Below are positions 320 to 25,722 of a DNA stretch of 33,405 nucleotides, in pieces. A program made the position numbers and the translations under genes. Source of the stretch: Cytophagales bacterium (GTDB lineage Bacteria > Bacteroidota > Bacteroidia > Cytophagales > UBA9547). The notes beneath the pieces are model-generated. The model did no database searches. It saw only the letters and a program-made list of their open reading frames with translations, and had not been told where the DNA came from. The stretch spans positions 1 to 33,405 of the forward strand of contig REAG01000123.1 of assembly GCA_004294265.1 (NCBI GenBank), in the 5' to 3' direction. How positions within the stretch are numbered: position 1 is the stretch's first letter; each line of letters starts with the position of its first letter.

Positions 320-3300
320 ATGTCTAATTCTTTCGATAAAAAATCCTATAAATCTACCTGTTCTTATTGTGGTGTTGGCTGTGGAATTATTGTTCACAAA
401 GAAACCAATGGAAAAATCAAAATAGAAGGCGATAAAGACCATCCTGTTAATAAAGGAATGCTTTGTTCTAAGGGAATGAATTTACACTATACCGTAATGG
501 ATAAGTCAGATAGAATTTTTTATCCAGAAATGCGTTGGGGTAGAAATCAACCACGCCAAAGAGTTAGCTGGGATCAAGCATTGGATAGAACTGCCGCCAC
601 ATTTAAGACTTTTATAGAAAAATATGGACCTGATTCGGTTGGCTTTTATGTTTCAGGACAATGTCTCACTGAAGAGTATTATGTAATAAATAAATTAATT
701 AAAGGATTTATTGGTTCAAATAATATTGATACAAATTCTAGATTGTGTATGAGTTCGGCTGTGGTTGGTTATAAGCTTAGTTTGGGCGAGGATGCCGTTC
801 CTGTTTGTTATGATGATATTGAAATTGCAGATACTTTTTTTGTAACTGGTGCAAATCCTGCGTGGTGCCACCCGATTTTATGGCGAAGAGTGGAAGCTCA
901 CAAACAAAAAAATCCTGATACAAAAATAATTGTGGTTGATCCACGAAAAACGCAAACGGCTGCCATCGCAGATTTGCATTTGCAAATCAATCCTGGAACG
1001 GATATTGTTTTGTATCATGCCATTGGAAGATTATTAATAGAAAAAGATGCTGTCGATTTAGACTTTATTACTAATTATGCAGATGGTTTTGAAAAATATA
1101 AAGAAATAGTTTTCCTTAAAACTTTGAAAGAATCTGCCACTATTTGTGGTGTTCGAGCGGAAGATATTCGTTGGGCAGCCGAATATATCAGTCGTGCCAA
1201 AGGTTTTATAACAATGTGGACGATGGGTTTGAACCAATCTGTGATTGGAGTGAATAAAAATTTGGCTTTAATTAACTTAAATTTAATTACAGGTCATATT
1301 GGTAAACCTGGTTCTGGACCGTTTTCGCTCACTGGTCAGCCCAATGCGATGGGAGGCAGAGAAGTTGGTGGATTAGCAAATTTATTACCAAACCATCGAG
1401 ATTTATTAAACCCCGAACACCGCAAAGCGGTGGAGGATTTTTGGAAAAGTCCTGTTCAAATTGCATCAAAACCGGGTCTGACTGCAACTGAAATGTTTGA
1501 GGCTTTGGCAGATGGCAGAATGAAAGCCATTTGGATTGTTTGCACAAATCCATTGGTAAGCATGCCTGATGTGCGAACGGTAGAAAAGGCTTTAGAAAAG
1601 GCAAAATTCGTGGTTGTTCAAGATTGTTCTTGGCTTTCGGACACTACAAAATATGCGGATGTGATACTTCCTGCGGCTTCATGGACAGAAAAAGAAGGCA
1701 CAATGACAAATTCCGAACGCAGAATAACTTACTTAAATAAAATTGTAGATGCACCAGGAGAAGCTCTGCCTGACACAGATATTATTTTGAAATTTGCCAA
1801 AAAAATGGGTTTTGGCAATTCATTTAATTATAAAAATTGCGAAGAAGTTTATGCAGAACATGCTGCACTTTCCGAAGGTACAAATACTGATATTTCAGGA
1901 TTAAATTATGAAATTCTAAAAGCAAATACTTCCGTTCAATGGCCATTTCCGAAAGGAGAATTATTGGGAGGAAAAGAAAGATTATTTGAAAATAAAATAT
2001 TTTATACACTAAATAAAAAAGCTCAAATTCATGCGGTATCTGATGTCAATTTATCTGAATCATTATCAACTGAATTACCTCTTATTCTTACCACAGGAAG
2101 AATAAGAGATCAGTGGCATACAATGACAAAAACTGGAAAAGTAAATAAACTAAAACAACATATTGAAGTTCCATATTTAGAAATTCATCCATCTGATGCA
2201 GAAAAAAGGCATATTTTGGAAGATAGTATTGTAGTTATCAATAATGCAAGAGGCGAAGTTAGAGCAAAAGCAAAAGTAACTACTGATATAAAAAAAGGAG
2301 TTGTATTTTTACCTATGCACTGGGGAAAAACAATGAATAATGATTTTGGAAGAGCCAATAATCTTACCAATAATTTGGTTGATGCTCGCTCCAAAGAACC
2401 TGATTTTAAGTTTGCTGCTGTTCAGGTCGCTTTATTTAAAAAACCAAAACAAAAAATCGTAATAGTGGGTGCTGGTGCTGCTTGTTTTGGCTTTTGTAAA
2501 TCCTACAGAGAGCTGAATAAAGAAGACGAAATTCATATTTTTTCAAAAGAATTATGGCCTTTTTATAACCGAGTTATGTTGCCTGATTATATTTCGGGGC
2601 ATCAAGTGTGGGAACAATTAGTTAAGTTAAAAGATGAGGAAATTCCTGATTGGGATTTGCATGTTCATAGAGAAACTTTGATTTCAAATATTGATAGAAC
2701 TAATAAAACCATCACTGACGATAAAGGAATTGTACATAAGTATGATATTTTATTTTTAGGCATGGGAAGCCGTGCTTTTATGCCAAAAGAAGTCCCTATT
2801 GGCAAAATGGCTGGTATTTTCAATATGAGAAGTAGAATTGATGCCGACAAATTATTGCCTTATTGTTTGCCAAATGCACATATATTAATAGTCGGAGGTG
2901 GACTTTTGGGCTTAGAATTGGCAGCTTCTTTAACACAAATGAAAGTTAAAATTACAGTTGTCAATCGAACGGACAGGTTAATGGAACGGCAATTGGATAG
3001 TTTAGGAAGTCAATTACTTTTAGAAGAATATCAAGAACGTAATATTCAGTTTTATTTTAATGATGAAGTTCAGTCATTTTTTGGAAATGAACACATCGAA
3101 GCTGTAACTTTAAAATCTGGAAAAAGAATTGAATGTTCAGCTGCAGTTTTTGCTATTGGCACAACGCCAAATGTGGAACTTGCAAGAGCTTCCGGGATTG
3201 ATGTAAAGCGTGGAGTTGTAGTGAATGAATATTTGCAAACTTCAGATTCTAGTATTTACGCAGCAGGAGAAATTGCAGAATTTAAAGGCATGATGTGGGG

Positions 3301-3862
3301 AATTACTGCTGCAGCCGAGCAACAAGCCGATGTGATTGCAAAGCATCTTTCGGGCGATTTGAGTGCCATTTATAAAGGTTCTACTTTTATGAATATCTTA
3401 AAAATGGAAGGATTGCAACTTTGTTCGATTGGTTTTCCAGAAGCTCCGCCCGATGATCCCACTTACGAAGAGGTGGTTTTTATAGATAAATCGCAACGCT
3501 ATTATAAAAAATGTGTTATTCACAACGACAAATTAATTGGAGCAATTTTAATTGGAGATAAATCAGAATTTATAGAATTTAAAGATTTAATTAGTAATAA
3601 AATTGAACTTTCGGATAAGCGTTTGGAATTACTTCGTTCCAATAAAAAAGCCGAACCTGTACTTGGAAAATTGGTTTGCTCTTGCAATAGTGTTGGAGAA
3701 GGAAATTTGGTAAATAAAGTAAAAGCAGGATGCAAAGACTTTACGGCTTTATGCAAAGAAACAGGTGCTGGCATGGGTTGCGGTAGTTGCAGACCCGAAG
3801 TTAAAGGAATTTTAGAACGTGAATATAAACCCGAAAAAGCAGGAAAATTAGAAATGGTTTAA
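320..3862 (+). CDS. Assimilatory nitrate reductase, catalytic subunit fused to FAD/NAD and BFD-like [2Fe-2S] domains
   Basis: A 1180-residue cytoplasmic enzyme expected to reduce nitrate to nitrite with NAD(P)H. The N-terminus carries a [4Fe-4S] motif (C14, C17, C21, C49) and a molybdopterin oxidoreductase domain. C143, in the context NSRLCMSS, is the likely molybdenum ligand, as in the NapA/NasA/NarB family. The molydopterin-binding C-terminal fold ends near residue 705. A second half follows: a pyridine nucleotide-disulfide reductase-like module with dinucleotide motifs near 713 (VGAGAACFG) and 854 (VGGGLLGLE), and an AAGE FAD motif near 980. It ends in a BFD-like [2Fe-2S] domain (CSC near 1120, CGSC near 1153), as in the N-terminal half of NirB. 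The fusion would carry electrons from NAD(P)H to molybdenum in one chain. moaA and moaD downstream fit its cofactor need. The start ATG follows an A-rich leader. Confidence 0.9.
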   Translation: MSNSFDKKSYKSTCSYCGVGCGIIVHKETNGKIKIEGDKDHPVNKGMLCSKGMNLHYTVMDKSDRIFYPEMRWGRNQPRQRVSWDQALDRTAATFKTFIEKYGPDSVGFYVSGQCLTEEYYVINKLIKGFIGSNNIDTNSRLCMSSAVVGYKLSLGEDAVPVCYDDIEIADTFFVTGANPAWCHPILWRRVEAHKQKNPDTKIIVVDPRKTQTAAIADLHLQINPGTDIVLYHAIGRLLIEKDAVDLDFITNYADGFEKYKEIVFLKTLKESATICGVRAEDIRWAAEYISRAKGFITMWTMGLNQSVIGVNKNLALINLNLITGHIGKPGSGPFSLTGQPNAMGGREVGGLANLLPNHRDLLNPEHRKAVEDFWKSPVQIASKPGLTATEMFEALADGRMKAIWIVCTNPLVSMPDVRTVEKALEKAKFVVVQDCSWLSDTTKYADVILPAASWTEKEGTMTNSERRITYLNKIVDAPGEALPDTDIILKFAKKMGFGNSFNYKNCEEVYAEHAALSEGTNTDISGLNYEILKANTSVQWPFPKGELLGGKERLFENKIFYTLNKKAQIHAVSDVNLSESLSTELPLILTTGRIRDQWHTMTKTGKVNKLKQHIEVPYLEIHPSDAEKRHILEDSIVVINNARGEVRAKAKVTTDIKKGVVFLPMHWGKTMNNDFGRANNLTNNLVDARSKEPDFKFAAVQVALFKKPKQKIVIVGAGAACFGFCKSYRELNKEDEIHIFSKELWPFYNRVMLPDYISGHQVWEQLVKLKDEEIPDWDLHVHRETLISNIDRTNKTITDDKGIVHKYDILFLGMGSRAFMPKEVPIGKMAGIFNMRSRIDADKLLPYCLPNAHILIVGGGLLGLELAASLTQMKVKITVVNRTDRLMERQLDSLGSQLLLEEYQERNIQFYFNDEVQSFFGNEHIEAVTLKSGKRIECSAAVFAIGTTPNVELARASGIDVKRGVVVNEYLQTSDSSIYAAGEIAEFKGMMWGITAAAEQQADVIAKHLSGDLSAIYKGSTFMNILKMEGLQLCSIGFPEAPPDDPTYEEVVFIDKSQRYYKKCVIHNDKLIGAILIGDKSEFIEFKDLISNKIELSDKRLELLRSNKKAEPVLGKLVCSCNSVGEGNLVNKVKAGCKDFTALCKETGAGMGCGSCRPEVKGILEREYKPEKAGKLEMV

Positions 3863-6391: not shown

Positions 6392-6418
6392 CATTTGTCT
6401 AAATAATTACGACATTTG
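6388..6418 (+). promoter_or_regulatory. Promoter of the Xre/RES pair with direct-repeat operator candidate
   Basis: TTG at 6388-6390, 20 bases, then GACATTTG at 6411-6418, which matches TAnnTTTG at 7 of 8 positions. The nonamer GACATTTGT occurs twice, at 6390-6398 and 6411-6419, exactly 21 bases apart (two helical turns), and overlaps both promoter boxes. This is where an autoregulating antitoxin would be expected to bind. The probable start codon at 6439 lies 20 bases beyond the -7 box. Confidence 0.55.
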
Positions 6419-6438
6419 TGTTGTTAAAAATAAGCAAA

Positions 6439-6906
6439 ATGAAAAAATCAAAATTTATTGACACAGAAGAGCAAGATATATCCGTTGTAAGTGAGCCACA
6501 AATTTCCTACCATACAACTGCAAATCCTAATTTTTATAATCCATATAAAATGATAGATACAGCTCGAAGTGGCGTATCAAAAAAGAAACTTTTGGAACTT
6601 TCTTATTCTACTAATATTGATATTGTAGAAATGGCAAAAATGCTTCATGTTTCAGTTCGTACTATTCAACGATATTCAGACAATGACAAACTAGACACGC
6701 ACATCAGTGAGCATATTTTAATGATTGAAAAGCTTTATCAAAAAGGTAATTCAACTTTTGATTCTCCAAATGGTTTTCATAATTGGATGAACACAGAGCT
6801 TTTTGCACTTAACTTTCAAAAACCTATCAGTTTTTTGGATACCTTATCAGGTGTTGAATTAGTTTACAACAAAATTGGGCAGTTTGAGCATGGCATTTTT
6901 GCATAA
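6439..6906 (+). CDS. Antitoxin of the Xre/MbcA/ParS family (partner of RES toxin)
   Basis: A 155-residue protein from the ATG at 6439. A GTG at 6418 is in frame but lies within the -7 box, so the ATG is preferred. Around residues 45-80 there is an Xre-like helix-turn-helix (LLELSYSTNIDIVEMAKMLHVSVRTIQRYS). The C-terminal 60 residues (FDSPNGFHNWMNTELFAL...LDTLSGVELVYNKIGQFEHGIFA) match the MbcA/ParS/Xre toxin-binding domain (DUF2384), which inserts its C-terminal end into the RES toxin's active site. The RES gene starts 6 bases after its stop. It is expected to neutralise the toxin and repress its own promoter. Confidence 0.88.
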   Translation: MKKSKFIDTEEQDISVVSEPQISYHTTANPNFYNPYKMIDTARSGVSKKKLLELSYSTNIDIVEMAKMLHVSVRTIQRYSDNDKLDTHISEHILMIEKLYQKGNSTFDSPNGFHNWMNTELFALNFQKPISFLDTLSGVELVYNKIGQFEHGIFA

Positions 6907-6912
6907 ATATCA

Positions 6913-7362
6913 ATGAAAGTTTATAGAATTGCAAAAAAAAACTTTGCCAAAGATTTAACTGGTGAAGGAGCTAGATTATACGGAGGAAGATGGAATTTTA
7001 TCGGAGATACAATGCTTTACACAGCAAGTAATGTAGCTTTAGCGGCTTTAGAGGTGGTTGTAAATATGCAATTTGTAAATATTCCTTCAGATTATAAAAT
7101 AGTGGTTATTGAAATACCTGATATTTTAAAAGTTTATTCTATGGAAATGGATGCAGACATAAATTGGACTAAAAATATAACTATATCTCAGTATTTTGGA
7201 CAGCAATGGTTAAATTCTAAAGTGTCTTTGTTAGCTGAGGTTTCTTCAGTCATTGTTCCGATTGATAAAAATATTTTAATAAATCCTTTGCACCCTGATT
7301 TTTCTAAAGTAAAAATTATTGACGTACAAGATTTTAATTTTGATAAAAGACTTATAAAATAA
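6913..7362 (+). CDS. RES-domain toxin (NAD+-degrading family)
   Basis: A 149-residue protein of full family length. It shows the RES pattern: R5 in VYRIAK, the GARLYGGRWNFIG motif at 19-31, E47 in ALAALEVV, a serine at 111/112 (EVSSVIVP), and the closing NILINPLHPDF at 120-130. RES toxins studied elsewhere (for example MbcT) deplete NAD+ and stop growth. The key residues appear intact, so it is likely active. It forms a standard antitoxin-first pair with the gene before it. The unusual point is the location between nitrate-assimilation and molybdopterin genes, with moaA translation beginning 2 bases after its stop. Confidence 0.88.
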   Translation: MKVYRIAKKNFAKDLTGEGARLYGGRWNFIGDTMLYTASNVALAALEVVVNMQFVNIPSDYKIVVIEIPDILKVYSMEMDADINWTKNITISQYFGQQWLNSKVSLLAEVSSVIVPIDKNILINPLHPDFSKVKIIDVQDFNFDKRLIK

Positions 7363-13214: not shown

Positions 13215-13256
13215 TTAGTTGTTAGTTGTTAGTTGTAAATTGTTAGTTGTAAATTG
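13215..13256. repeat. Heptanucleotide tandem array in the osmC leader
   Basis: Six 7-base units, read on the + strand: TTAGTTG three times, then TAAATTG, TTAGTTG, TAAATTG. The array ends 4 bases before the osmC start codon (minus-strand gene), so changes in copy number would alter its 5' untranslated region by 7 bases each. Confidence 0.85.
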
Positions 13257-13315
13257 ATAGTCATAATACATTATTTTTTAAAATAAAATTTATAATAAAA
13301 AATTAATTCTAAATT

Positions 13316-13385
13316 GATAACTCATAATTCATAATTCATAATTCATAATTCATAATTCATAACTCATAATTCATAACTCATAATT
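13316..13385. repeat. Heptanucleotide tandem array abutting the fabG stop
   Basis: Ten 7-base units: one GATAACT, then nine of CATAATT or CATAACT. The last unit runs into the fabG stop codon (TTA at 13384-13386 on the + strand). Two unit variants are mixed, as in the other two arrays of this window. Confidence 0.88.
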
Positions 13386-14283: not shown

Positions 14284-16464
14284 CTATTTTTCGATAATTA
14301 ATTTTTTAGTTAAACGACTTCCATTTTTCAACTGAGCAGAAACTATATAAATTCCTGCCGCCAAATTACCCGTAGAAATTTTGGTCTCTCCACTTGAAAC
14401 CGTAACAGATACCACTGGCATACCAACCAAACTATAAATAATTACAGAAGATAAACCATTTGCAGAAACTGTAACCGACTCAGTTGCTGGATTAGGGAAA
14501 AGACTCAAAGAAGAAATTTCTTCAGATTGAGAAGTTACCCCAGTTAAAGTATGAGTCCCGCCACAACCCAATGGTGGTGCATTATTAATGCTAAACACAT
14601 TACCATTACAAGTTGAAGTAATCGTATTTCTATTTGTTGATGCAGTCATAACAACAGTATATCTTAAAGAAGGATTATAAATATACGAACCTGAAAGTGT
14701 AATAACAATAGTTGAAGATGAAAGCGATAGTATATGAGCATCTGGTGTTGAACTCAATGCAGATCTACCAACACCTAGTGGAGTACCCAAAACTGATAAA
14801 GTTGTAAATTCTCTTGGAATAATTCCAGGACCTGTCGTATTAAAAATATCAGAATATTCAAAATTAAAAGACATTTTATCACTAGTAGAATAACTTCCAG
14901 CTCTCATAGTATAATATCCTAATCCATTTAAGGTATTTGGATATTTTGAACATTGATTAATAAACTGATATGAATTTAAAGAAAAACAATTAACAGGTAC
15001 TTGATTATTAATTAAAATCTCTTTAGACTTTTTTAAACCATTTGCTAAAGAAGTTGCTGTTACAGTAATAACTGAATTTTCAGTTAAAGATTTTGAACGA
15101 ACAGAACCTGTAATTGAATTTATTGTTGCACTCTCTAATGAAACAGGATCTAAAGAATAAGTCACATTTTGAGGAGTAAATGCAGGCAATACAGTTGATA
15201 CTACGTTTGAATAACCCCAATTTGATGTAATATTAGGTGCATCAATTGAAATATCCGTTGGAACAGGTTGATTAGAAATTTCTACAACAACAGATTTTGT
15301 ATAAGATCTATTTCCTACAGAAGTAGCAGTTACAGTTACAGAACCATCACTAAACGGAGTAATGACACCTAACTCATTAATAATTGCTAAAGGAAAACCC
15401 AAATTTGAAATTCCTTGTACTGTCCATTCAACAATAGGATTTGCACCACGTGGAGTAATAATTGATTTTAAAGTTAAGTTTTCTCCTGCATTGGAGATAA
15501 CGAATGGACTACCATTTTTAGTTACTACATCAATGCCAATTACTGAAATAACACCAGGAACACCTTTAAGAACCATTACACCAAAATGTTTAGAAATAGT
15601 CCAATTACAATTCCAGCAACATTGATTCCACATGAGTTGTCCTCTTCTAATATAATTATTTTCAGGATTTTTATCTGTTGTTGCAATGTTGTTAGAAATA
15701 TCAAAACCTAAAGGTTTACGAGTATTACTAGGTTTGGAAGCTTGTGCAGCAGGAGTCGTACCATAATCGAGAGTTAAATCATCAATAAACTCTTTGTTAA
15801 TGCTTTTCCAAGGAATTCTGCACTCAATAATATATCCTTCTGTAGTATTTTTACAAACAGCAGATGAGCCTTCTAAAAGCATACCATGACCCAAACCTTT
15901 AGCAGGTATGATAGAAACATCGGGAGTGTTTTTGTAGCTCAAAACCATTTGAGCATCTCTTAAAGCATTATAAATTTGAGGAAAATTAGGCTCTCCAGGA
16001 TTTATAGATGTTCTAGCTTCACCATTATTAAGAAAAAGCTCTAATGCTTCTGCTGATTGTTCAGTAGGTTTTGCGTTTCTAAAAGCTACAGATGATGGAG
16101 ATTTTACTTTAGCTGCCATATACAAATACGTTTCATCCCAAGCTGTTGAAAAAGAAGTTACTTGATTGTTGCGATCATTTGGAAAAGGTTTTACTCCATC
16201 TGCGTCAATGGTAATCATATTATTCAAAAGATTTTTAAACAATCCAGAAGAATTGTCTATAATATTTTGAGAATTGTCTTCTCCAAGAATATTAGATTCT
16301 GTCCAACAATAATCATCTAACTCACCATCTAAAGTAGGTGGTGCGGGTGTAAATACAGGAAAAACTGTAAGGTTACTATTATTGATAACCTGCGAAAAGG
16401 AAATCAGTGGTAAAGAGAACGCAAGTGCTGCGATTTTCGATAATAAATGTACTTTTTTAAACAT
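14284..16464 (-). CDS. Secreted CBM9-like/Ig-like protein with T9SS sorting domain
   Basis: A 726-residue secreted protein, taken from the ATG at 16462-16464 because the signal peptide starts there (MFKKVHLLSKIAALAFSLPLISFS). An upstream in-frame ATG would add 10 residues that spoil it. Residues about 35-302 form a carbohydrate-binding family 9-like/DOMON-like domain (PTLDGELDDYCW, AWDETYLYMAAKV, EALELFLN, GYIIECRIPWKSI, PLGFDISNN). Two Ig-like (Big_2-type) domains follow at about 305-400 and 405-495. The last 75 residues are a type A T9SS sorting domain (SLFPNPATESV ... GIYIVSAQL ... KKLIIEK). No catalytic motif is seen. It is the last gene of the PUL, 97 bases after susD, and probably holds glycan at the cell surface. 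Confidence 0.85.
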   Translation of the reverse strand: MFKKVHLLSKIAALAFSLPLISFSQVINNSNLTVFPVFTPAPPTLDGELDDYCWTESNILGEDNSQNIIDNSSGLFKNLLNNMITIDADGVKPFPNDRNNQVTSFSTAWDETYLYMAAKVKSPSSVAFRNAKPTEQSAEALELFLNNGEARTSINPGEPNFPQIYNALRDAQMVLSYKNTPDVSIIPAKGLGHGMLLEGSSAVCKNTTEGYIIECRIPWKSINKEFIDDLTLDYGTTPAAQASKPSNTRKPLGFDISNNIATTDKNPENNYIRRGQLMWNQCCWNCNWTISKHFGVMVLKGVPGVISVIGIDVVTKNGSPFVISNAGENLTLKSIITPRGANPIVEWTVQGISNLGFPLAIINELGVITPFSDGSVTVTATSVGNRSYTKSVVVEISNQPVPTDISIDAPNITSNWGYSNVVSTVLPAFTPQNVTYSLDPVSLESATINSITGSVRSKSLTENSVITVTATSLANGLKKSKEILINNQVPVNCFSLNSYQFINQCSKYPNTLNGLGYYTMRAGSYSTSDKMSFNFEYSDIFNTTGPGIIPREFTTLSVLGTPLGVGRSALSSTPDAHILSLSSSTIVITLSGSYIYNPSLRYTVVMTASTNRNTITSTCNGNVFSINNAPPLGCGGTHTLTGVTSQSEEISSLSLFPNPATESVTVSANGLSSVIIYSLVGMPVVSVTVSSGETKISTGNLAAGIYIVSAQLKNGSRLTKKLIIEK

Positions 16465-16561
16465 GATTATAAAGATTAAATTATATGGAAACAAAATTAA
16501 TAAAAAAAATTATATTAAACAAAGAAATTATTATATTTTTTTTCTAAATATCATTTATAAA

Positions 16562-18529
16562 TTAATACCCTGGATTTTGAGTTAAGGTTTCACGACTTAA
16601 ATCAATTTGATTTTGTGGTATTGGGCATAAATTATGAATTGTATTAAGATATTTTTTTTTGTTATCAGGTTCATTTTTTAAACTAAATACAATGCTAGCT
16701 GAACCAGGATGGTCTTTTTCATCTAATGCCTCCCAACGTCTTAAATCTAAAAATCTATGGTATTCAAATGCTAACTCTACACGCCTTTCTCTAACAATAG
16801 CATCTCTTAATCCATATTTTTTATCTTCAAACATTCTTATGGGAAATAAACCTAGTTCTGGATTTAAAAAAGCACTTTCTGCGTTTGTTACACCATAATT
16901 TAAAGGTTCATTATTTTCTGTTAATGTAGCATAAGGAAATTCAGAAAGAATTTTAAGAGATGATTCGCCAACAACTAAATTATTTGGTATGTCTAATTCC
17001 ACAGTATTAGGAAAACCAGCATACATAACCGTTGCGTCACTTGCATTGGGGCGTTTAGGTAAATGATTAGGAATATTTTGTCCATCATAAATAAAACCAC
17101 CAAATGTTACTATAGGGGTAGGTACATCATCCATTACCAAACGTCTTTTAATTGTTAAATATTGACTTGATAATCCTCTTGCTCTTTCTCTTACTTTATT
17201 AAGATATTCAGTTGCTTTTGTTAATTCGCCAGTTTCTAAACAAGCTTCTGCATACATCAATAAAACATCTGAGTAACGTATCATTTTATAATTCATTTCA
17301 CCAAATGCTCCACCAGGTCCACTTGCCCCAAAGTTATCAACTCCTTTTTTTACATGAAAGAACTCGCCAATAGTATTTGATCTATTTTCTTTTACATCTC
17401 TCGCCATTCCTGCTTCATAGGATTTTCCAGTAACTTTTGTAGTTTTATCATCACCTACGCCACTAAAATCATTATCATATAGAAATCTTAAAGATTGTCG
17501 GATGCGAGGATCTCCCATTTCACAACTGTTAGCCCATTCTTGAGTAGCAATTAATTCGCCATAACCTTGAGATATGCCTCCTTGAACACCAAATCTTAAA
17601 TCTCTTTGTTGATTTTCACTTGCTATTCCAACATCGTGTGTCCAACCGAAATTTCCATATTTTGAATAAGTTATTTCAAAAATAGACTCTGAGTGATATT
17701 CTTTTTCAAATATATCTTTCCATGCAGTAGGTCCAGTTAATAAACTAAACTTTTTACTATCAATAACTTTAAACAAATAATCTTTAGCAGATTGAAAATC
17801 ACTTTCTCGTGTGGCAGCTATATAACAAGCTTTATGCAAATAAATTTTACCAAGAAGTGCATTTGCAGCATGTAGGGTTATACGTCCTTGATTTATATCA
17901 GACCAAGTTGGAGGTAAAAGATTGGTTGCCATTTTTAAGTCTTCAACTGCTTGATTAAAAACCTCTTGCCTTGTACTTCGCTTTACATAAAGCGGACCTG
18001 GAAAACTAGCACTTTGAGGAGTTTCAGTAAGGATTGGTGCACCACCAAAAAGTACAGCCAAATTAAAATAGTGTAACCCTCTTAAAAAATAGGCTTCTCC
18101 CAAAATGGCATTTCTATCTACCTCACTTTTAAATGGAATTTCAGACTTTTTATCTCTCCGGGTTTTAGAAACATTTTCGAGTACTAAATTTGTTCTGTAA
18201 ACACCTTCGTACATAAACCTCCAAAGATCTCTAAATTGAGGTTCACCACCTGCATCTTGGGTTGCAGACCAGTTAAAGTCATCAATGGCATCAGTTAAAT
18301 TTTTTGTTGTGATATCATCACTTGCCATTTCTACAACTTGAAAATAGGAACTACCATAATAGGCTACATGTTGAATATTAGAGTAGCAAGCCATGATTGC
18401 AGAAAAAGCATCTTGTTCTGTTTTGTAAAAGTTTTCAGCTAGAATATCATTTTTAGGGTCTAAATAGATGTAATTTGCACAACCAGTAGTGAGTAAGAAA
18501 ACAATTGAAGCTATAATTAACTTTTTCAT
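16562..18529 (-). CDS. SusD/RagB family outer-membrane lipoprotein
   Basis: A 655-residue surface glycan-binding partner of the SusC porin. It begins with a lipoprotein signal (MKKLIIASIVFLLTTGC; C17 lipidated). The N-terminal SusD-like helical region includes EQDAFSAIMACYSNIQ and YFLRGLHYFNLAVLFGGAPIL. The C-terminal domain has the usual MNYKMIRYSDVLLMYAEA, YLNKVRERA and RERRVELAFEYHRFLDLRRW, and ends in NPGY. Length is somewhat above the family norm because of an insert around residues 460-560. The gene starts 27 bases after susC, as is normal for the pair. Confidence 0.95.
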   Translation of the reverse strand: MKKLIIASIVFLLTTGCANYIYLDPKNDILAENFYKTEQDAFSAIMACYSNIQHVAYYGSSYFQVVEMASDDITTKNLTDAIDDFNWSATQDAGGEPQFRDLWRFMYEGVYRTNLVLENVSKTRRDKKSEIPFKSEVDRNAILGEAYFLRGLHYFNLAVLFGGAPILTETPQSASFPGPLYVKRSTRQEVFNQAVEDLKMATNLLPPTWSDINQGRITLHAANALLGKIYLHKACYIAATRESDFQSAKDYLFKVIDSKKFSLLTGPTAWKDIFEKEYHSESIFEITYSKYGNFGWTHDVGIASENQQRDLRFGVQGGISQGYGELIATQEWANSCEMGDPRIRQSLRFLYDNDFSGVGDDKTTKVTGKSYEAGMARDVKENRSNTIGEFFHVKKGVDNFGASGPGGAFGEMNYKMIRYSDVLLMYAEACLETGELTKATEYLNKVRERARGLSSQYLTIKRRLVMDDVPTPIVTFGGFIYDGQNIPNHLPKRPNASDATVMYAGFPNTVELDIPNNLVVGESSLKILSEFPYATLTENNEPLNYGVTNAESAFLNPELGLFPIRMFEDKKYGLRDAIVRERRVELAFEYHRFLDLRRWEALDEKDHPGSASIVFSLKNEPDNKKKYLNTIHNLCPIPQNQIDLSRETLTQNPGY

Positions 18530-18556: not shown

Positions 18557-21500
18557 TTAAAATGTGAATTGTAAACCAACAGAATAAGTGCGTGGTTGAG
18601 GATAAGAACCTCTGTCGTAACCAGCAACTTGAGAAGAAATGACATCTCTTCCATTTGCATCTTTACCTAAGTTAGCTAATTCTGGATCAAAACCTTTGTA
18701 AGCGGTTAAAGTTATTAAATTTTGAGCTTGAATATAAAAACGTAATGAAATTTGATCATCCGTTTTAAACATTTTAGTTAGTAATTTAGCAGGAATACTA
18801 TACCCAATTTGAATGTTTTTAAGCCTTACAAAACTTCCATCTTCAACCCACCTTGATGAAGGTCTAGAATTTTGAGCAGGATCTTTAGTGTAAGCCAAAG
18901 GCATATTTGTTGGTTTAGCCCTTGTAGATCTGTCAAGGACAGATACCAATTGATTTTTATCTTGAGGTCCCCCACCATTATCCATAGCCTCTAAACCTTT
19001 TCTTTGGTTATTATAAATTTCTTGACCAAAAGAACCTTGTAAAAATAGTTTGAAATCAAAACCTTTATAGGATGCATCAGCAGAAAATCCAAAATTCATA
19101 AAAGGAATAGGATTGCCAATGTTTACTCTATCTTTACTATCTAAAACACCATCATTGTTAACATCTTTAAACTTTGCATCCCCAACACCTTTTTTAACAT
19201 TTACTCCTAAATCAGCTAAACCACCACCTGCAATTGTTTGATTTCCTACATAGGAATCAGCTTCAGACTGAGTTTGAATTACTCCATCATATACATAACC
19301 TCTAAAGTAAGAAACTGGTTCATTAACCTCTATATAAGAAACACCATTAAAATCAAATATTGGCTGACCTGGTTTGTCAGTAGCTAATGCGGTAACTTTA
19401 TTTGAAATAAAAGATACATTTGGGCCAAGAGAATATTTGAATTCTCTACTTTCATTTCTGTATAAAATTGCAATTTCTAAACCTTTATTTGAAATTGAAC
19501 CAATATTAGTAAAATAACTTACCCTTTCGTAGTAAGGAGCATCAGTTGCACCAGAAAGCGCAGGTATTGAAACTGGCACCAACATATCGTAAGAATTTTT
19601 CATGTAAGCATCAATATTTAATAGAACCCGGTTTTTATAAATACCTACATCAACACCAGCATTAAACTGTTGTGCAGACTCCCATTTTAAGTTTGGATTA
19701 GCCAAACCTCGGGTTGGTGCTATTCCAGGATATACCGTATTTCCAAGTGAATACCTAATAATATCTGTACTTATAACTTGAGCGTATCTAAAGTTTCCAA
19801 TTTCCTGATTTCCAGTTAAACCCCAGCCTACCCTTAATTTTAATTCTGAAATTATTTTGATATTTTCCATAAATTTCATATTTGAGATTCTCCAACCAAG
19901 AGAAATTGATGGGAAAAAACCATATTTAAAGTCATTAGCAAATCGGGAAGAACCGTCATATCTAGCATTGATTGTAGCCATGTAAGTGTTTTTGTAAGCG
20001 TAATTTATACGACCTAAAAAACCATACAAGCCATTTTCGAGAATTTTTCCGTCTGGTCTTAAATACACACTTGATTGAGTTGCACCAATGGTATATAATC
20101 CTTGAGGAAAATCTTGTGCAGTAGCAACTAAAGTTTTATTTCTAAAATATTGTGCATCCATACCTACAGTTACACCTAGGTCATGATCATTGGCGAAAGA
20201 TTTGTTATACATAAGCAAATGATTAACTACGTTTGAAAAATTAGTTCTTTCGGTTTGAGTTACTTCAGTTCTATCAATTCTATCAGCAGATAGTCCCCCC
20301 TCAAATTTATCCCTAATAGCTTGTTTTGATTCTGTAAAAATATCTACACCAAAACTTGAACGCCATTTCAATCCTTCAATAGCTTTAATTCCTAATGCTT
20401 TAGAAATATCTATTTCAGCATATACATTTCCAAAAATACGATATTTTTCTGTTAAATCTCTAATAAAAGTATTGGCAGCTACAGGATTTCTAAAATCATT
20501 ATTTCCAATAATCGTACTATTTTGTGCGTTTAGTCTCGAAAAAGCATTTGGTTGATTAATTAAAGGTAAACTAGGGTCATATACAGTAGAATAGGGCGTA
20601 ATTGAGTTTGCAGAAGTATATTCAGTATTATACACAGGCATTAATGGGCTTCCAGTAAGAGCACCGTCAGCAAAATCAATTCCTTTTTTACTAGTTTCAC
20701 GAGCAAAAGAAAGCGCCTCTCCCACTTTGAGCCATTTTTTTGGTATAATATCAGAATTTACTCTAAAAGTATATCTATCATATCCATTTCCTTTTTGAGT
20801 TCCTTGTTGATTAAAATAACCAAGACCAACAGCGTAATTTGCATTTTCGTTACCACCTGAAGCTCTGATATTGTAATTTTGAATAGTACCCGTTTGTAAT
20901 AATTGATCTAACCAGTTAGTGTTACCTTGTTTTGCAATAATAGCAGGATCTTTTGTTGTATAGGCTTGATTAACACCAGTTGCAGTTGCATCGCCAGAGT
21001 TTGTGTAAACATCTTTCATAAAGGCTTTATATTGGTCAGCATTTAAAACATCTAGTTTATTCCAAACATTTTGAATACCAGCCATTGCATCAAACTCAAT
21101 TCTCCCTTTACCGCTTTTTCCTCTTTTGGTAGTGATAATAACAACCCCATTAGAACCTCTTGAACCATAAATTGCAGTAGCTGCTGCATCTTTAAGTACC
21201 TCCATGCTTTCAAAATCGGCTGGATTGAAATTTGAAAGATTTCCTTCTGAAACATCTAAAGGTACACCATCAATCACATAAAGAGGTTGCGAACCATTAA
21301 TAGAGCCTACACCACGAATATTTACGGAAGATGCTGCTCCAGGAGCACCTGAAGTTTGTGTTACATTAACACCTGCTGCTCTCCCTTGCAATGCAGATGC
21401 TGCATCTACATTGATTGTTTGCTCCATAGATTTACGACTTACGGATACATTTGAACTTGTAACTTGAGATGTTTTGATAGTACCATATCCAATAGCTACT

Positions 21501-21868
21501 ACTGGAGGTATTTCAATGGCATCAGTTTGAAGGCTAATGTTAAATTCTGTTTTAGAACCATCAATTTTAATTATTTCATTTTTGTAGCCAAAAAATGAAA
21601 TTGAAATACTAGAATTTTCTGATACCTCTACATTTTTTAATATAAAGTTTCCATCATAATCTGTCGTAGTTCCTTTGGTTGTTCCTACCACAACAACAGT
21701 AGCTCCAACAACTGGGTCTCCTTTAGAAATACCCATACTTTTGTCATCTATACCTGATAAAACTGTACCTTTTATATCAACAGTTTTTTTTAATTGTTCT
21801 TGGGCAAAAGTTAGACTTGCTAGTAAAAGAAAAACAAATTTTAATTTTATAAAAACTTTTAATTTCAT
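18557..21868 (-). CDS. SusC/RagA family TonB-dependent outer-membrane transporter
   Basis: An 1103-residue TonB-linked outer-membrane transporter that imports oligosaccharides held by SusD. Signal peptide is residues 1-22 (cleavage after LTFA). A carboxypeptidase-regulatory-like beta domain covers about 30-125 (VDIKGTVLSG ... DYDGNFILKNV). The plug follows, with the SusC signature VVAIGYGTIKTSQVTSS, QGRAAGVNV, LYVIDGVPLD and IYGSRGSNGVVIITTKRG. The rest is the 22-strand barrel, ending in SVGLQFTF with the terminal Phe of outer-membrane barrels. A -7 box lies in the leader. Substrate is unknown; the PUL genes suggest a hemicellulose- or pectin-type glycan, but this is speculative. Confidence 0.96.
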   Translation of the reverse strand: MKLKVFIKLKFVFLLLASLTFAQEQLKKTVDIKGTVLSGIDDKSMGISKGDPVVGATVVVVGTTKGTTTDYDGNFILKNVEVSENSSISISFFGYKNEIIKIDGSKTEFNISLQTDAIEIPPVVAIGYGTIKTSQVTSSNVSVSRKSMEQTINVDAASALQGRAAGVNVTQTSGAPGAASSVNIRGVGSINGSQPLYVIDGVPLDVSEGNLSNFNPADFESMEVLKDAAATAIYGSRGSNGVVIITTKRGKSGKGRIEFDAMAGIQNVWNKLDVLNADQYKAFMKDVYTNSGDATATGVNQAYTTKDPAIIAKQGNTNWLDQLLQTGTIQNYNIRASGGNENANYAVGLGYFNQQGTQKGNGYDRYTFRVNSDIIPKKWLKVGEALSFARETSKKGIDFADGALTGSPLMPVYNTEYTSANSITPYSTVYDPSLPLINQPNAFSRLNAQNSTIIGNNDFRNPVAANTFIRDLTEKYRIFGNVYAEIDISKALGIKAIEGLKWRSSFGVDIFTESKQAIRDKFEGGLSADRIDRTEVTQTERTNFSNVVNHLLMYNKSFANDHDLGVTVGMDAQYFRNKTLVATAQDFPQGLYTIGATQSSVYLRPDGKILENGLYGFLGRINYAYKNTYMATINARYDGSSRFANDFKYGFFPSISLGWRISNMKFMENIKIISELKLRVGWGLTGNQEIGNFRYAQVISTDIIRYSLGNTVYPGIAPTRGLANPNLKWESAQQFNAGVDVGIYKNRVLLNIDAYMKNSYDMLVPVSIPALSGATDAPYYERVSYFTNIGSISNKGLEIAILYRNESREFKYSLGPNVSFISNKVTALATDKPGQPIFDFNGVSYIEVNEPVSYFRGYVYDGVIQTQSEADSYVGNQTIAGGGLADLGVNVKKGVGDAKFKDVNNDGVLDSKDRVNIGNPIPFMNFGFSADASYKGFDFKLFLQGSFGQEIYNNQRKGLEAMDNGGGPQDKNQLVSVLDRSTRAKPTNMPLAYTKDPAQNSRPSSRWVEDGSFVRLKNIQIGYSIPAKLLTKMFKTDDQISLRFYIQAQNLITLTAYKGFDPELANLGKDANGRDVISSQVAGYDRGSYPQPRTYSVGLQFTF

Positions 21869-21985: not shown

Positions 21986-22019
21986 AAAAAGGTTGATAAT
22001 TCTATTATCAACCTTTTTT
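21986..22019 (-). terminator. Terminator of the glycosidase gene
   Basis: Fully complementary 15-base arms AAAAAGGTTGATAAT (21986-22000) and ATTATCAACCTTTTT (22004-22018) close a 3-base loop, with A and T tracts on either side. It follows the stop of the glycosidase gene by about 20 bases and separates that gene from susC. Confidence 0.92.
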
Positions 22020-22038
22020 GAATATTAATTAATATTAA

Positions 22039-25000
22039 TTAGTTTGTTATAACTATTTTCTTAGAAGTTGTTCCATATTTAGAACTGAACTTAGCAATAT
22101 ATATACCTGGTTCAAGATTTAAAATAGATTTTTTAGAATTTTGATTAAACTCTGTTTGATAAATGACAGAACCTTGAATGTTAGTAATTACAACAGAACC
22201 ACTCAAATTAGCAGTTAATGTAACCGTTCCTTCAGAAGGGTTTGGAGAAACATTAAAATTAACCAAATTTTGAATATTAGTTTCATTAATTTTAGATGTA
22301 GGACATGGTAGTAAATTATCTAAATTAACTACTTGATTAGTTATTGTAAATGTTCTTGTAAAAGAAAACAAATTAGGATTATCCATTAATTCTCCAACTA
22401 CAGTTACTGTACCAATGCTTGAACAGTTTTGAGCTTGGATATTAAGCTGAGATCCGTTATTTTTTTCCTGTATATCTATCTCCATAGTTGGGCTAGATTT
22501 GAATATTTTCCACTGTAATCTTTTTGATTCTTCATAAACATTTGAAGGAACAAATGAGGTTTTAAATTCCATTGTACCTAAAGGAGTTTCAATATTTGGA
22601 CTTAAAGATGGAGCTTCTTCAACTGATAGAGAAACACTTGTGGGTTTTCTATAATTTGTGTAACCGACTGTTAACTCTCTATTTGTAAGCGTATTACCAG
22701 AAAATGTTAATAAAACTAACGTATATTTAGGTACTGTTACAATCAATTTATTATTTACCACTACATTTTCAGAATCCAAAATTGTACCTTTTGAATCAAA
22801 ATTTGTTTCAGGTCTTAAGATATATTTTTTTCCAGAACTTGCAACAGGTGTAATGCCTGCAGGTAAATTTAATTGAACTTCAAAATCATGTTCAAAATCT
22901 TTACTTACTAATAAAACAACATATTTTCCATCTTTATGATAGGCATTCATAGAAACTGGATCAGGATCTTGACTTACGTTACCATCTGATTTCAATAATA
23001 CCTCTTTTGTTCGACCCGAAACACCCAAAATATTGGATTTAACAAATCTATTTAGAAGTTTCATTACATAATATCTAGGCATTTTTATAGTTCCCGATTG
23101 GAACAAACCCCATTGACTATCACCTAACGCGAAATTTAAAGGTGAAATTTGTCCTAATTTAAGAGATTGCATGTGGAAATCAGCCATTAAAATTGCTTGT
23201 CCAAATTTTTTATTGATAGTTTCACTACTCATGTCTGTTTCATAAAAAATAGAGGGCCTTAATTTTGGTTGTCTTGGATTTCCATTAACAGCAGCCGTTA
23301 AATCTATGTTCATTGTAAGTTTAAGACCTGCCAATTTTTTAAAAATCTGCTCTCTAGCATTTTTAAAATAATCTAATTCGCTTTTACCAACTTCGATTTC
23401 TTTAACATAACCTAAATTTCCACCTACATATCCTCCTAATGTATAACCATCAAGCCTGTCTGGTCCTGGAGAAAAGAACATATCTTCATGCAATTCTTTT
23501 GACCCATATTCAGTAGGATGTGGTTCTCTGCCAGAATAATACAATTTAATTCTTGTTGAATCAAAGCCTGGAATAGCTTTTGCTGCATTTGCTAATTCTC
23601 TTGCCCATAATGCATAAACTTTATAATCATTGAACCCTCCAGCATTGTGATCTACTCCTACCCCATTGCTAGTGCCTCCCCAAGGTTCGCATCCAAACTC
23701 AATGTAAACATTAGTAGTAGAATTATCATAAAGGGGTGGATTTATAAAACCTTCTTCTAACCTTCTAGCATATCCTAAATTATATTGTGGAAAACCTGCA
23801 ATTGTTTTTGTTCCTTGAATATAACCTATAAATCTTTGCATTGTATTCGTAGGATTGGCACGCCAATCAATTTCTGGATTATCATCAGTGCCTATGGCAA
23901 TTTCTGCATGTGCTTTTAAAAAAGTTGCAAATTTTATAAATTCTGAAAATGTAGCGGAATTTGGTCTATTTTTAGCTACCAATCCAGAACGACCAGAAAA
24001 AGAAACAAGATTAGCATCTAAAGAACCCCAACGAACCATACTGGGAGCTAAATCTGTGTGAATATCCAAAGTACTTCCTAGAAAATCATTTCTATTAAAT
24101 GCAGCACCGTTCAAACCAATACCTTCGCTTTTTCCTACATAATCCGTAGTAATATCCATAGCAACTTTTTTTACACCCGGAGAGTTTAATAAATGATCAA
24201 AGCCTAAAGTTGTAAATACCTGAGTTACACTTGGTAAAGATTCGTTTAAAGAACCATCCAAAGCTGTTACATAATATTCATGAACTGTATTGGGTTGGTA
24301 TGTTTTTAAAATTTGATTTGTTTTGCTTAAAATTCCTAAAGCACTTGTATTATATTTAATACCATCCACAAATAGGTTATATCCAAATATAGCAGACTCT
24401 ACATCAGTAGCTCCAGACCATGCAACATTGATACTCATATCTCCTAAGCCCAAAACTGTAAATGAATTTGGTGGTGTAGGTTTATTAGTTTCGGCAGTAT
24501 ATGTAGTTTCGTTTATTACGTTGCTTGGAAAAGACTCATTGCCATTTTTGTCAAAACAAGTATAAAAAATTGAGTAATTAGTAACCTCATCTAATCCTGA
24601 AAGAACGTAAGAAGTATTATTTTCTCCTTTCAATATTTTATTTAATTTACCATCAACATAAATTTTATATCCAAAAATTCCTGAATTTGACTCCTCGTCA
24701 GGATCAACAGCTTTTTTCCAAGTTATATATATTTTATTATTAGATTTTCTTAAAAAATTAAGTGTTTCAGTTAGAATAGGTTTTTTAAAATCAGAGTAAG
24801 GGGTTATTTGATTTCCTGACATAACAACTGGATTTGCCCCAGCAACACTTGGCGTGTTGTAAACACCATTACCAGAAACTGGAACAATATTTGGAGGATT
24901 TGTACCTAGATAAGCAACACTAATATCCCAAATATTATTATCATAAGCACTTCCAGATGCTAGAAAGCCATAAGTATTTCCACCTGATAAAGTAGTTACA

Positions 25001-25722
25001 AAGGATATTTTATTTGTTAAGCTAAGAACTTCAATTTCTTTTTGAAATCTACCATAGACATTAACAGGTAATATTTCGTTATTTTTATACAAATTCATTT
25101 GCACACCTTGTGGAGCATTTCCAACAAACAAATAATAACCAGTTGATGGTGGTGTATAATAACCTTTGAGTCTTGTAGTTATAGATATTCCATATTTTGA
25201 ACCATTTGGACCACCTTGAGTTAGGGGCAAACCTTTATAAATTCCATTTTCATCATCCTGCATATTGTTTGCAGATGTTGGAACAATAGTATCTAAAACC
25301 GACTCAGTAGTTAATGAGGGGAGATTATTTGTCCAAAAAACAATATCATAAATACTTAGCATACAACCTTTTCTATAAAAATCTCCTACATTAATTGTGA
25401 AAACTTTATCTGTTTGTGAACCATTATCGGCAGTTACAGTTAAATTAACAGAACCCGAATTTCCGAATTCTTTTACATTAATAATAGCCACTTTTTGAGG
25501 CGATGTATATTTTACACCTGTTACGCTCAAAATTGCATTATTAGAAGATGAGGCAGATATTGTGATTGCTCCAGAACCAGAAATTCCATTGACAATAATA
25601 TAACCATCGCCACTACCTATATTTAAATTATTTGATGTTACAGTACCAATCATAGGTTGTGCAAACAAATGAAAGGCTGAAAAAAGCCATATTGAAAGGA
25701 GAATTTGTAATTTAGTTTTCAT
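22039..25722 (-). CDS. Secreted clan GH-A-like glycosidase with FnIII and T9SS domains
   Basis: A 1227-residue secreted multidomain protein with signal peptide 1-21 (ending LFAQ). Residues about 25-112 are Ig-like, about 120-275 look like a PA14-type beta domain (GYYTPPSTGYYLFVGNAP), and two fibronectin III domains lie at about 315-408 and 413-506. Residues 510-895 resemble a (beta/alpha)8 glycosidase of the GH51/GH39 type. MVRWGS near 562 sits like the R-y-P-G-G strand. E679 in IEFGCEPWGG fits the NE-W acid/base, with Cys replacing the usual Asn, and E828 in IFYETDMS could be the nucleophile. A beta-sandwich (about 895-1010), another beta domain, and a T9SS sorting domain (1155-1227) follow. 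An arabinofuranosidase-like role is possible. The fold call is by eye and the substrate is not known. Confidence 0.65.
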   Translation of the reverse strand: MKTKLQILLSIWLFSAFHLFAQPMIGTVTSNNLNIGSGDGYIIVNGISGSGAITISASSSNNAILSVTGVKYTSPQKVAIINVKEFGNSGSVNLTVTADNGSQTDKVFTINVGDFYRKGCMLSIYDIVFWTNNLPSLTTESVLDTIVPTSANNMQDDENGIYKGLPLTQGGPNGSKYGISITTRLKGYYTPPSTGYYLFVGNAPQGVQMNLYKNNEILPVNVYGRFQKEIEVLSLTNKISFVTTLSGGNTYGFLASGSAYDNNIWDISVAYLGTNPPNIVPVSGNGVYNTPSVAGANPVVMSGNQITPYSDFKKPILTETLNFLRKSNNKIYITWKKAVDPDEESNSGIFGYKIYVDGKLNKILKGENNTSYVLSGLDEVTNYSIFYTCFDKNGNESFPSNVINETTYTAETNKPTPPNSFTVLGLGDMSINVAWSGATDVESAIFGYNLFVDGIKYNTSALGILSKTNQILKTYQPNTVHEYYVTALDGSLNESLPSVTQVFTTLGFDHLLNSPGVKKVAMDITTDYVGKSEGIGLNGAAFNRNDFLGSTLDIHTDLAPSMVRWGSLDANLVSFSGRSGLVAKNRPNSATFSEFIKFATFLKAHAEIAIGTDDNPEIDWRANPTNTMQRFIGYIQGTKTIAGFPQYNLGYARRLEEGFINPPLYDNSTTNVYIEFGCEPWGGTSNGVGVDHNAGGFNDYKVYALWARELANAAKAIPGFDSTRIKLYYSGREPHPTEYGSKELHEDMFFSPGPDRLDGYTLGGYVGGNLGYVKEIEVGKSELDYFKNAREQIFKKLAGLKLTMNIDLTAAVNGNPRQPKLRPSIFYETDMSSETINKKFGQAILMADFHMQSLKLGQISPLNFALGDSQWGLFQSGTIKMPRYYVMKLLNRFVKSNILGVSGRTKEVLLKSDGNVSQDPDPVSMNAYHKDGKYVVLLVSKDFEHDFEVQLNLPAGITPVASSGKKYILRPETNFDSKGTILDSENVVVNNKLIVTVPKYTLVLLTFSGNTLTNRELTVGYTNYRKPTSVSLSVEEAPSLSPNIETPLGTMEFKTSFVPSNVYEESKRLQWKIFKSSPTMEIDIQEKNNGSQLNIQAQNCSSIGTVTVVGELMDNPNLFSFTRTFTITNQVVNLDNLLPCPTSKINETNIQNLVNFNVSPNPSEGTVTLTANLSGSVVITNIQGSVIYQTEFNQNSKKSILNLEPGIYIAKFSSKYGTTSKKIVITN

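Follow-up and report, generated by a model that had tools for sequence, protein, structure and literature searches.

A divergent lineage of probable GH51-like enzymes in Cytophagales, some of which have replaced the asparagine before the proposed acid/base glutamate

The locus and its genes

The window analysed here is a stretch of 33,405 nucleotides from a freshwater Cytophagales bacterium. On its reverse strand, at 22039-25722, lies an ORF for a large enzyme of 1227 aa, with an ATG start and no internal stops. Family scans of the whole protein return only a T9SS tail and fibronectin type III (FN3) matches; its core, submitted as a single sequence, has no match in Pfam, NCBIfam or PDB, and 84,980 species genomes, scanned with this one protein, contained no matches. 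Judging from the analyses below, the protein is probably a secreted, GH51-like multidomain enzyme; its parts are all given on the reverse strand. The translation opens with a signal-peptide-like N-terminus, MKTKLQILLSIWLFSAFHLFAQ (25657-25722, recognised by eye), and continues with a putative PA14-like region at about residues 115-275 (24898-25380), assigned by likeness to the relative L042, which itself has PA14/GLEYA matches. Residues 315-505 (24208-24780) comprise FN3 repeats, the first of which matches Pfam fn3 with an E value of 4.7e-5, slightly below the gathering score, while the second was called from the repeat pattern. The predicted catalytic core, residues 506-1012 (22687-24207), consists of a barrel and a C-terminal beta-sandwich and is GH51-like according to AlphaFold2, Foldseek and hhalign. 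A T9SS type A C-terminal sorting domain (residues 1158-1225, 22048-22251; TIGR04183, E 9e-11) ends the protein, which is presumably exported by the T9SS.

The enzyme gene has its own start region behind a glutamate synthase small subunit gene, and the stretch TATATTTG, some 35 bases upstream, resembles by eye the Bacteroidetes -7 element. It is separated by a terminator-like hairpin of 15 pairs (21986-22018, reverse strand) from a gene for a SusC/RagA TonB-dependent transporter (18557-21868; TIGR04056, 806 bits), ahead of which TAATTTTG can be seen by eye. Then follow genes for a SusD-family outer-membrane lipoprotein (16562-18529; PF07980, E 6e-43) and a CBM9-like protein with a T9SS tail of its own (14284-16494; PF06452, E 3.9e-8, and TIGR04183), all likewise on the reverse strand. 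The label 'PUL enzyme' given in the initial annotation is thus borne out, with the SusC/SusD pair of a PUL and the CBM9 protein adjoining the enzyme gene. This four-gene order of enzyme, SusC, SusD and CBM9 protein recurs in another genome from the same genus (L012), where the identities to the window proteins are 48%, 73%, 50% and 39%, respectively, and where dN for the enzyme pair is 0.49 against a near-saturated dS of 1.45. The association of CBM9 with the GH51-like core recurs, since the two are fused in a 2252 aa protein (L045:5960-12718) that also has PA14, four Big_2 domains and a T9SS tail, and since a CBM9 protein is encoded near the lineage member of L047.

Several other features of the window are worth recording in their own right. 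A forward-strand gene at 320-3862 encodes an 1180 aa fusion of molybdopterin oxidoreductase, pyridine-nucleotide disulphide oxidoreductase, rubredoxin reductase C-terminal and BFD [2Fe-2S] domains that may be a nitrate reductase complete in itself; a gene downstream encodes a protein of 483 aa whose C-terminal part is a rubredoxin. At 6418-7362 (forward strand) genes for an Xre/MbcA/ParS-type antitoxin and, 6 bases on, a RES-domain toxin form a typical toxin-antitoxin pair, flanked on one side by a rubredoxin-containing gene and on the other by a MoaA-like molybdenum cofactor gene. Two tandem arrays of 7-base repeats, at 13215-13261 (TTAGTTG) and 13304-13385 (TAATTCA, 11.7 copies), lie just downstream of a short-chain dehydrogenase gene.

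Relatives and their distribution

Two other genomes of the genus hold four relatives of the enzyme (L012-L015). A five-row profile run against 391 genomes of the order retrieved eight additional members or fragments outside the genus, in genomes G551, G578 and G585 and, weakly, in G405; the weak G405 member was scored at E 2.4e-119 by the later 12-row profile, which already contained its own row. Twelve relatives were found in all, eleven with full-length cores and one partial, so that the lineage counts 13 members (one partial) in 7 genomes, every one of them within the order of the window. The 12-row alignment used below (A3) comprises the window core and the eleven other full-length cores. 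Samples of the class and the phylum yielded only GH51-type matches above background and no new lineage members, family searches centred on three of the distant hosts brought no further member, plasmid and viral-contig searches found no relatives, and a viral fold search gave nothing informative. Two 'CEPWGG' matches elsewhere in the phylum look GH13-type, and their likeness was put down to chance. No Alpha-L-AF_C gene could be recognised in the genome of the window.

Members of the lineage that keep the asparagine (N-type) have an unusual neighbour in two genomes: secreted proteins with AhpC/TSA-like, chitobiase C-terminal-like and F5/8-type domains and T9SS tails (L047:9578-13324 and L049:1172-2755), in which a thioredoxin-like fold is oddly paired with glycan-binding domains. 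A GH30-type gene beside L049 was considered as a clue to the substrate and dropped, as several GH30 activities matched it only weakly.

Kinship with GH51

In the PDB the 12-row profile matches GH51 alpha-L-arabinofuranosidases (best E 3.7e-6), with the acid/base columns of the two lined up, and hhalign joins the profile to GH51 proteins of the same phylum with a probability of 98.8% and an E value of 5.1e-17 over 415 columns. With a genus-only profile, E828 of the YE pair aligns with the GH51 nucleophile, in an alignment of lower probability (85%). The AlphaFold2 model of the core (pLDDT 84.7, pTM 0.87) points the same way: among the Foldseek matches the top 44 are all GH51, with E values from 1.6e-22, TM scores of about 0.70 and 12-15% identity. 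GH79 and GH44, also of clan GH-A, come next with lower scores and with no sequence match found, and all listed top matches are clan GH-A-type glycosidase folds. In the model E679 lies three residues after the fourth barrel strand (core residues 167-171) and E828 directly after the seventh (319-322), the places at which the catalytic glutamates of a clan GH-A barrel are found; the loop right behind the acid/base motif (core residues 176-186) has a pLDDT under 50. As a control, the asparagine-keeping member L046 was modelled with AlphaFold2, and its best match is MgGH51 across the full length of L046. The profile of the N-type group aligns end to end with large GH51 proteins (E 1.7e-14).

The likeness to characterised GH51 enzymes (MgGH51, 6zps; TxGH51, 2vrk; GsAbfA, 1pz3) extends to the barrel and beta-sandwich with a first strand from the N-terminus, to the aligned acid/base and nucleophile glutamates and to a conserved R...G stretch ahead of the motif. 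In MgGH51 (PMC7604909) the sandwich is inserted after the first strand, an arrangement shared by the compact N-type members of the lineage. There are also differences: the Pfam model Alpha-L-AF_C does not match the window protein and reaches at best E 0.006 among the 12 members, short of its gathering score, and the maximum-likelihood tree separates the family from the sampled GH51 proteins with 100/100 support. Unlike GH51, the window protein also carries the T9SS tail and the PA14-like and FN3 parts, and it has CBM9 partners. Taken on profiles and predicted folds, the proteins form a deeply divergent GH51-like lineage within clan GH-A; they are not filed as members of GH51, since the sequence model of that family does not recognise them and the window protein lacks the asparagine discussed below. 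The placement in clan GH-A and the pair of catalytic residues that had been expected from the sequence, E679 as acid/base and E828 as nucleophile, hold up in these comparisons, as does the suggestion of a new subfamily, here an unclassified lineage. There is precedent for such a case in GH148, which was established as a family of clan GH-A from weak similarity together with glutamate mutants (PMC5725463). The GH148 motif INNEN keeps the asparagine and its nearest family is GH42, whereas the present lineage is nearest to GH51 and has lost the asparagine in the window group.

The altered acid/base motif

The proposed acid/base motif, VYIEFGCEPWGGTSNG, reads G677-C678-E679-P-W-G-G683 (23674-23694, reverse strand), with C678 encoded by TGC at 23689-23691 and E679 by GAA at 23686-23688; the candidate nucleophile E828, within FYETDMS, is encoded by GAA at 23239-23241 on the same strand. 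These codons, read from the ORF, confirm the residue numbers of the initial annotation. In GH51 the asparagine preceding the acid/base (Asn350 in MgGH51), a feature of clan GH-A, binds O2 of the substrate; O5 is bound by Tyr402 and O3 by Glu23 (MgGH51 numbering; PMC7604909). Loss of this asparagine is notable because of its contact with the sugar, and every one of the 32 GH51-type proteins sampled reads GNE at the aligned place. The Asn-to-Cys change singled out at the outset is real. The residue is cysteine in the window protein, L012 and L013, serine in L014 and threonine in L015 and L042; asparagine is found in six more distant members (L043-L048). A sequencing error can be set aside for the cysteine, as it is common to two relatives in other genomes.

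On the aligned sequences, then, the altered motif is a trait of a clade within the GH51-like lineage and not a one-off. In the maximum-likelihood tree a single loss of the asparagine suffices, with three changes in total, and the cysteine, serine or threonine state of the six members would be best explained by one such loss. L015 and L042 are placed with the window group at moderate support (92/96, plus an open fork), support is weak at some internal forks, and the branch of L048 is long; L015 additionally lacks the Arg of the RWG motif.

The remainder of the putative active site is well preserved. Both E679 and E828 are kept without exception in the 12 aligned cores, which are 20-51% identical to the window core, a pattern beyond chance, and they belong to about 20 invariant columns that also include N571, D619, R654, W681, G683, Y765 and Y827. 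Tyr765 lines up by eye with a conserved GH51 tyrosine. The place of the O3-binding glutamate appears by eye to hold Asn538, in a part of the alignment that is not reliable, and the histidine that precedes the strand-6 tyrosine of GH51 is, again by eye, apparently absent. R732 (23527-23529, reverse strand), an arginine located where strand 5 ends, is present in 6/6 members without the asparagine versus 1/6 members with it, and may compensate for the lost residue; because this pattern follows the tree, it does not count as independent evidence.

Probable mechanism and alternative explanations

The protein most likely works like a retaining enzyme of GH51 and clan GH-A, to judge from its sequence and predicted structure. 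The fuller reading, which we regard as probable, is that of a T9SS-secreted, surface-acting retaining glycoside hydrolase from a divergent GH51-like lineage of clan GH-A that lost the asparagine once. E679 as acid/base and E828 as nucleophile would occupy the usual double-displacement positions in the barrel and support retaining catalysis. The O2-holding asparagine would have given way once, in the ancestor of the window group, to threonine, cysteine or serine, all of them smaller and polar, and part of its role has probably passed to R732 or to other changes in the second shell. The enzyme would trim or cut a glycan at the cell surface, SusD and SusC would import the products and the CBM9 protein may help to hold the substrate. 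A name matching one related genome of the genus, Cytophagales 18, occurs in a study of Microcoleus river biofilms (PMC7367855), and by virtue of this tie a mat polysaccharide is a reasonable first guess at the substrate.

The initial annotation had also raised the option of a binding protein, which in its strict form would be a catalytically dead surface glycan-binding protein of the PUL. Such a role could account for the loss of a normally fixed active-site asparagine and for the additional binding-type domains, but a dead enzyme is expected to lose its glutamates, and here all that has been lost is the asparagine, exchanged for small polar residues; E679 and E828, together with W681, G683 and Y827 beside them, are kept throughout 12 very divergent proteins. 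A dead binding protein appears unlikely because both glutamates are invariant in all the aligned cores, and we hold it to be very improbable. An ordinary GH51 alpha-L-arabinofuranosidase that has merely diverged, with a neutral cysteine and with arabinan or arabinoxylan as substrate, would agree with GH51 as the best match by profile and fold and with the alignment of Tyr765. That reading is difficult to reconcile with the low identity, the failure of Alpha-L-AF_C to match, the full support for a group apart from the sampled GH51 proteins and the absence of the O2-binding asparagine and, by eye, of the O3-binding glutamate and the histidine before the tyrosine as well; we consider it quite unlikely.

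A further proposal is a more specific form of the retaining-hydrolase reading. The exchange of Asn for Cys, Ser or Thr might fit a sugar substituted at O2 by a sulfate, a methyl group or a branch, or else a uronic acid, and R732 would then bind the group that has been added. The O2 contact of the GH51 asparagine, the distribution of R732 and the related genome from the Microcoleus study are all consistent with this, yet the PUL has no sulfatase gene, the R732 pattern tracks the phylogeny and the proposal is pure inference from these clues, so that it is best regarded as unlikely.

Implications for the family

The predicted retaining glycosidase described here belongs to a small lineage (13 members in 7 genomes) without a database model of its own. 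There is some small chance that it represents a new GH family beside GH51, one branch of which has dispensed with the Asn-to-O2 contact and re-made it with an arginine from strand 5; the target would then be an O2-modified sugar or one unlike arabinofuranose, in a cyanobacterial or diatom mat polysaccharide. As the lineage holds both an asparagine form and a Cys/Ser/Thr form, it offers a natural set of variants for asking to what extent the contact of asparagine with O2 is dispensable in a retaining enzyme of clan GH-A. It also supplies a likely mechanism for those PUL enzymes in which family scans recognise no catalytic domain.
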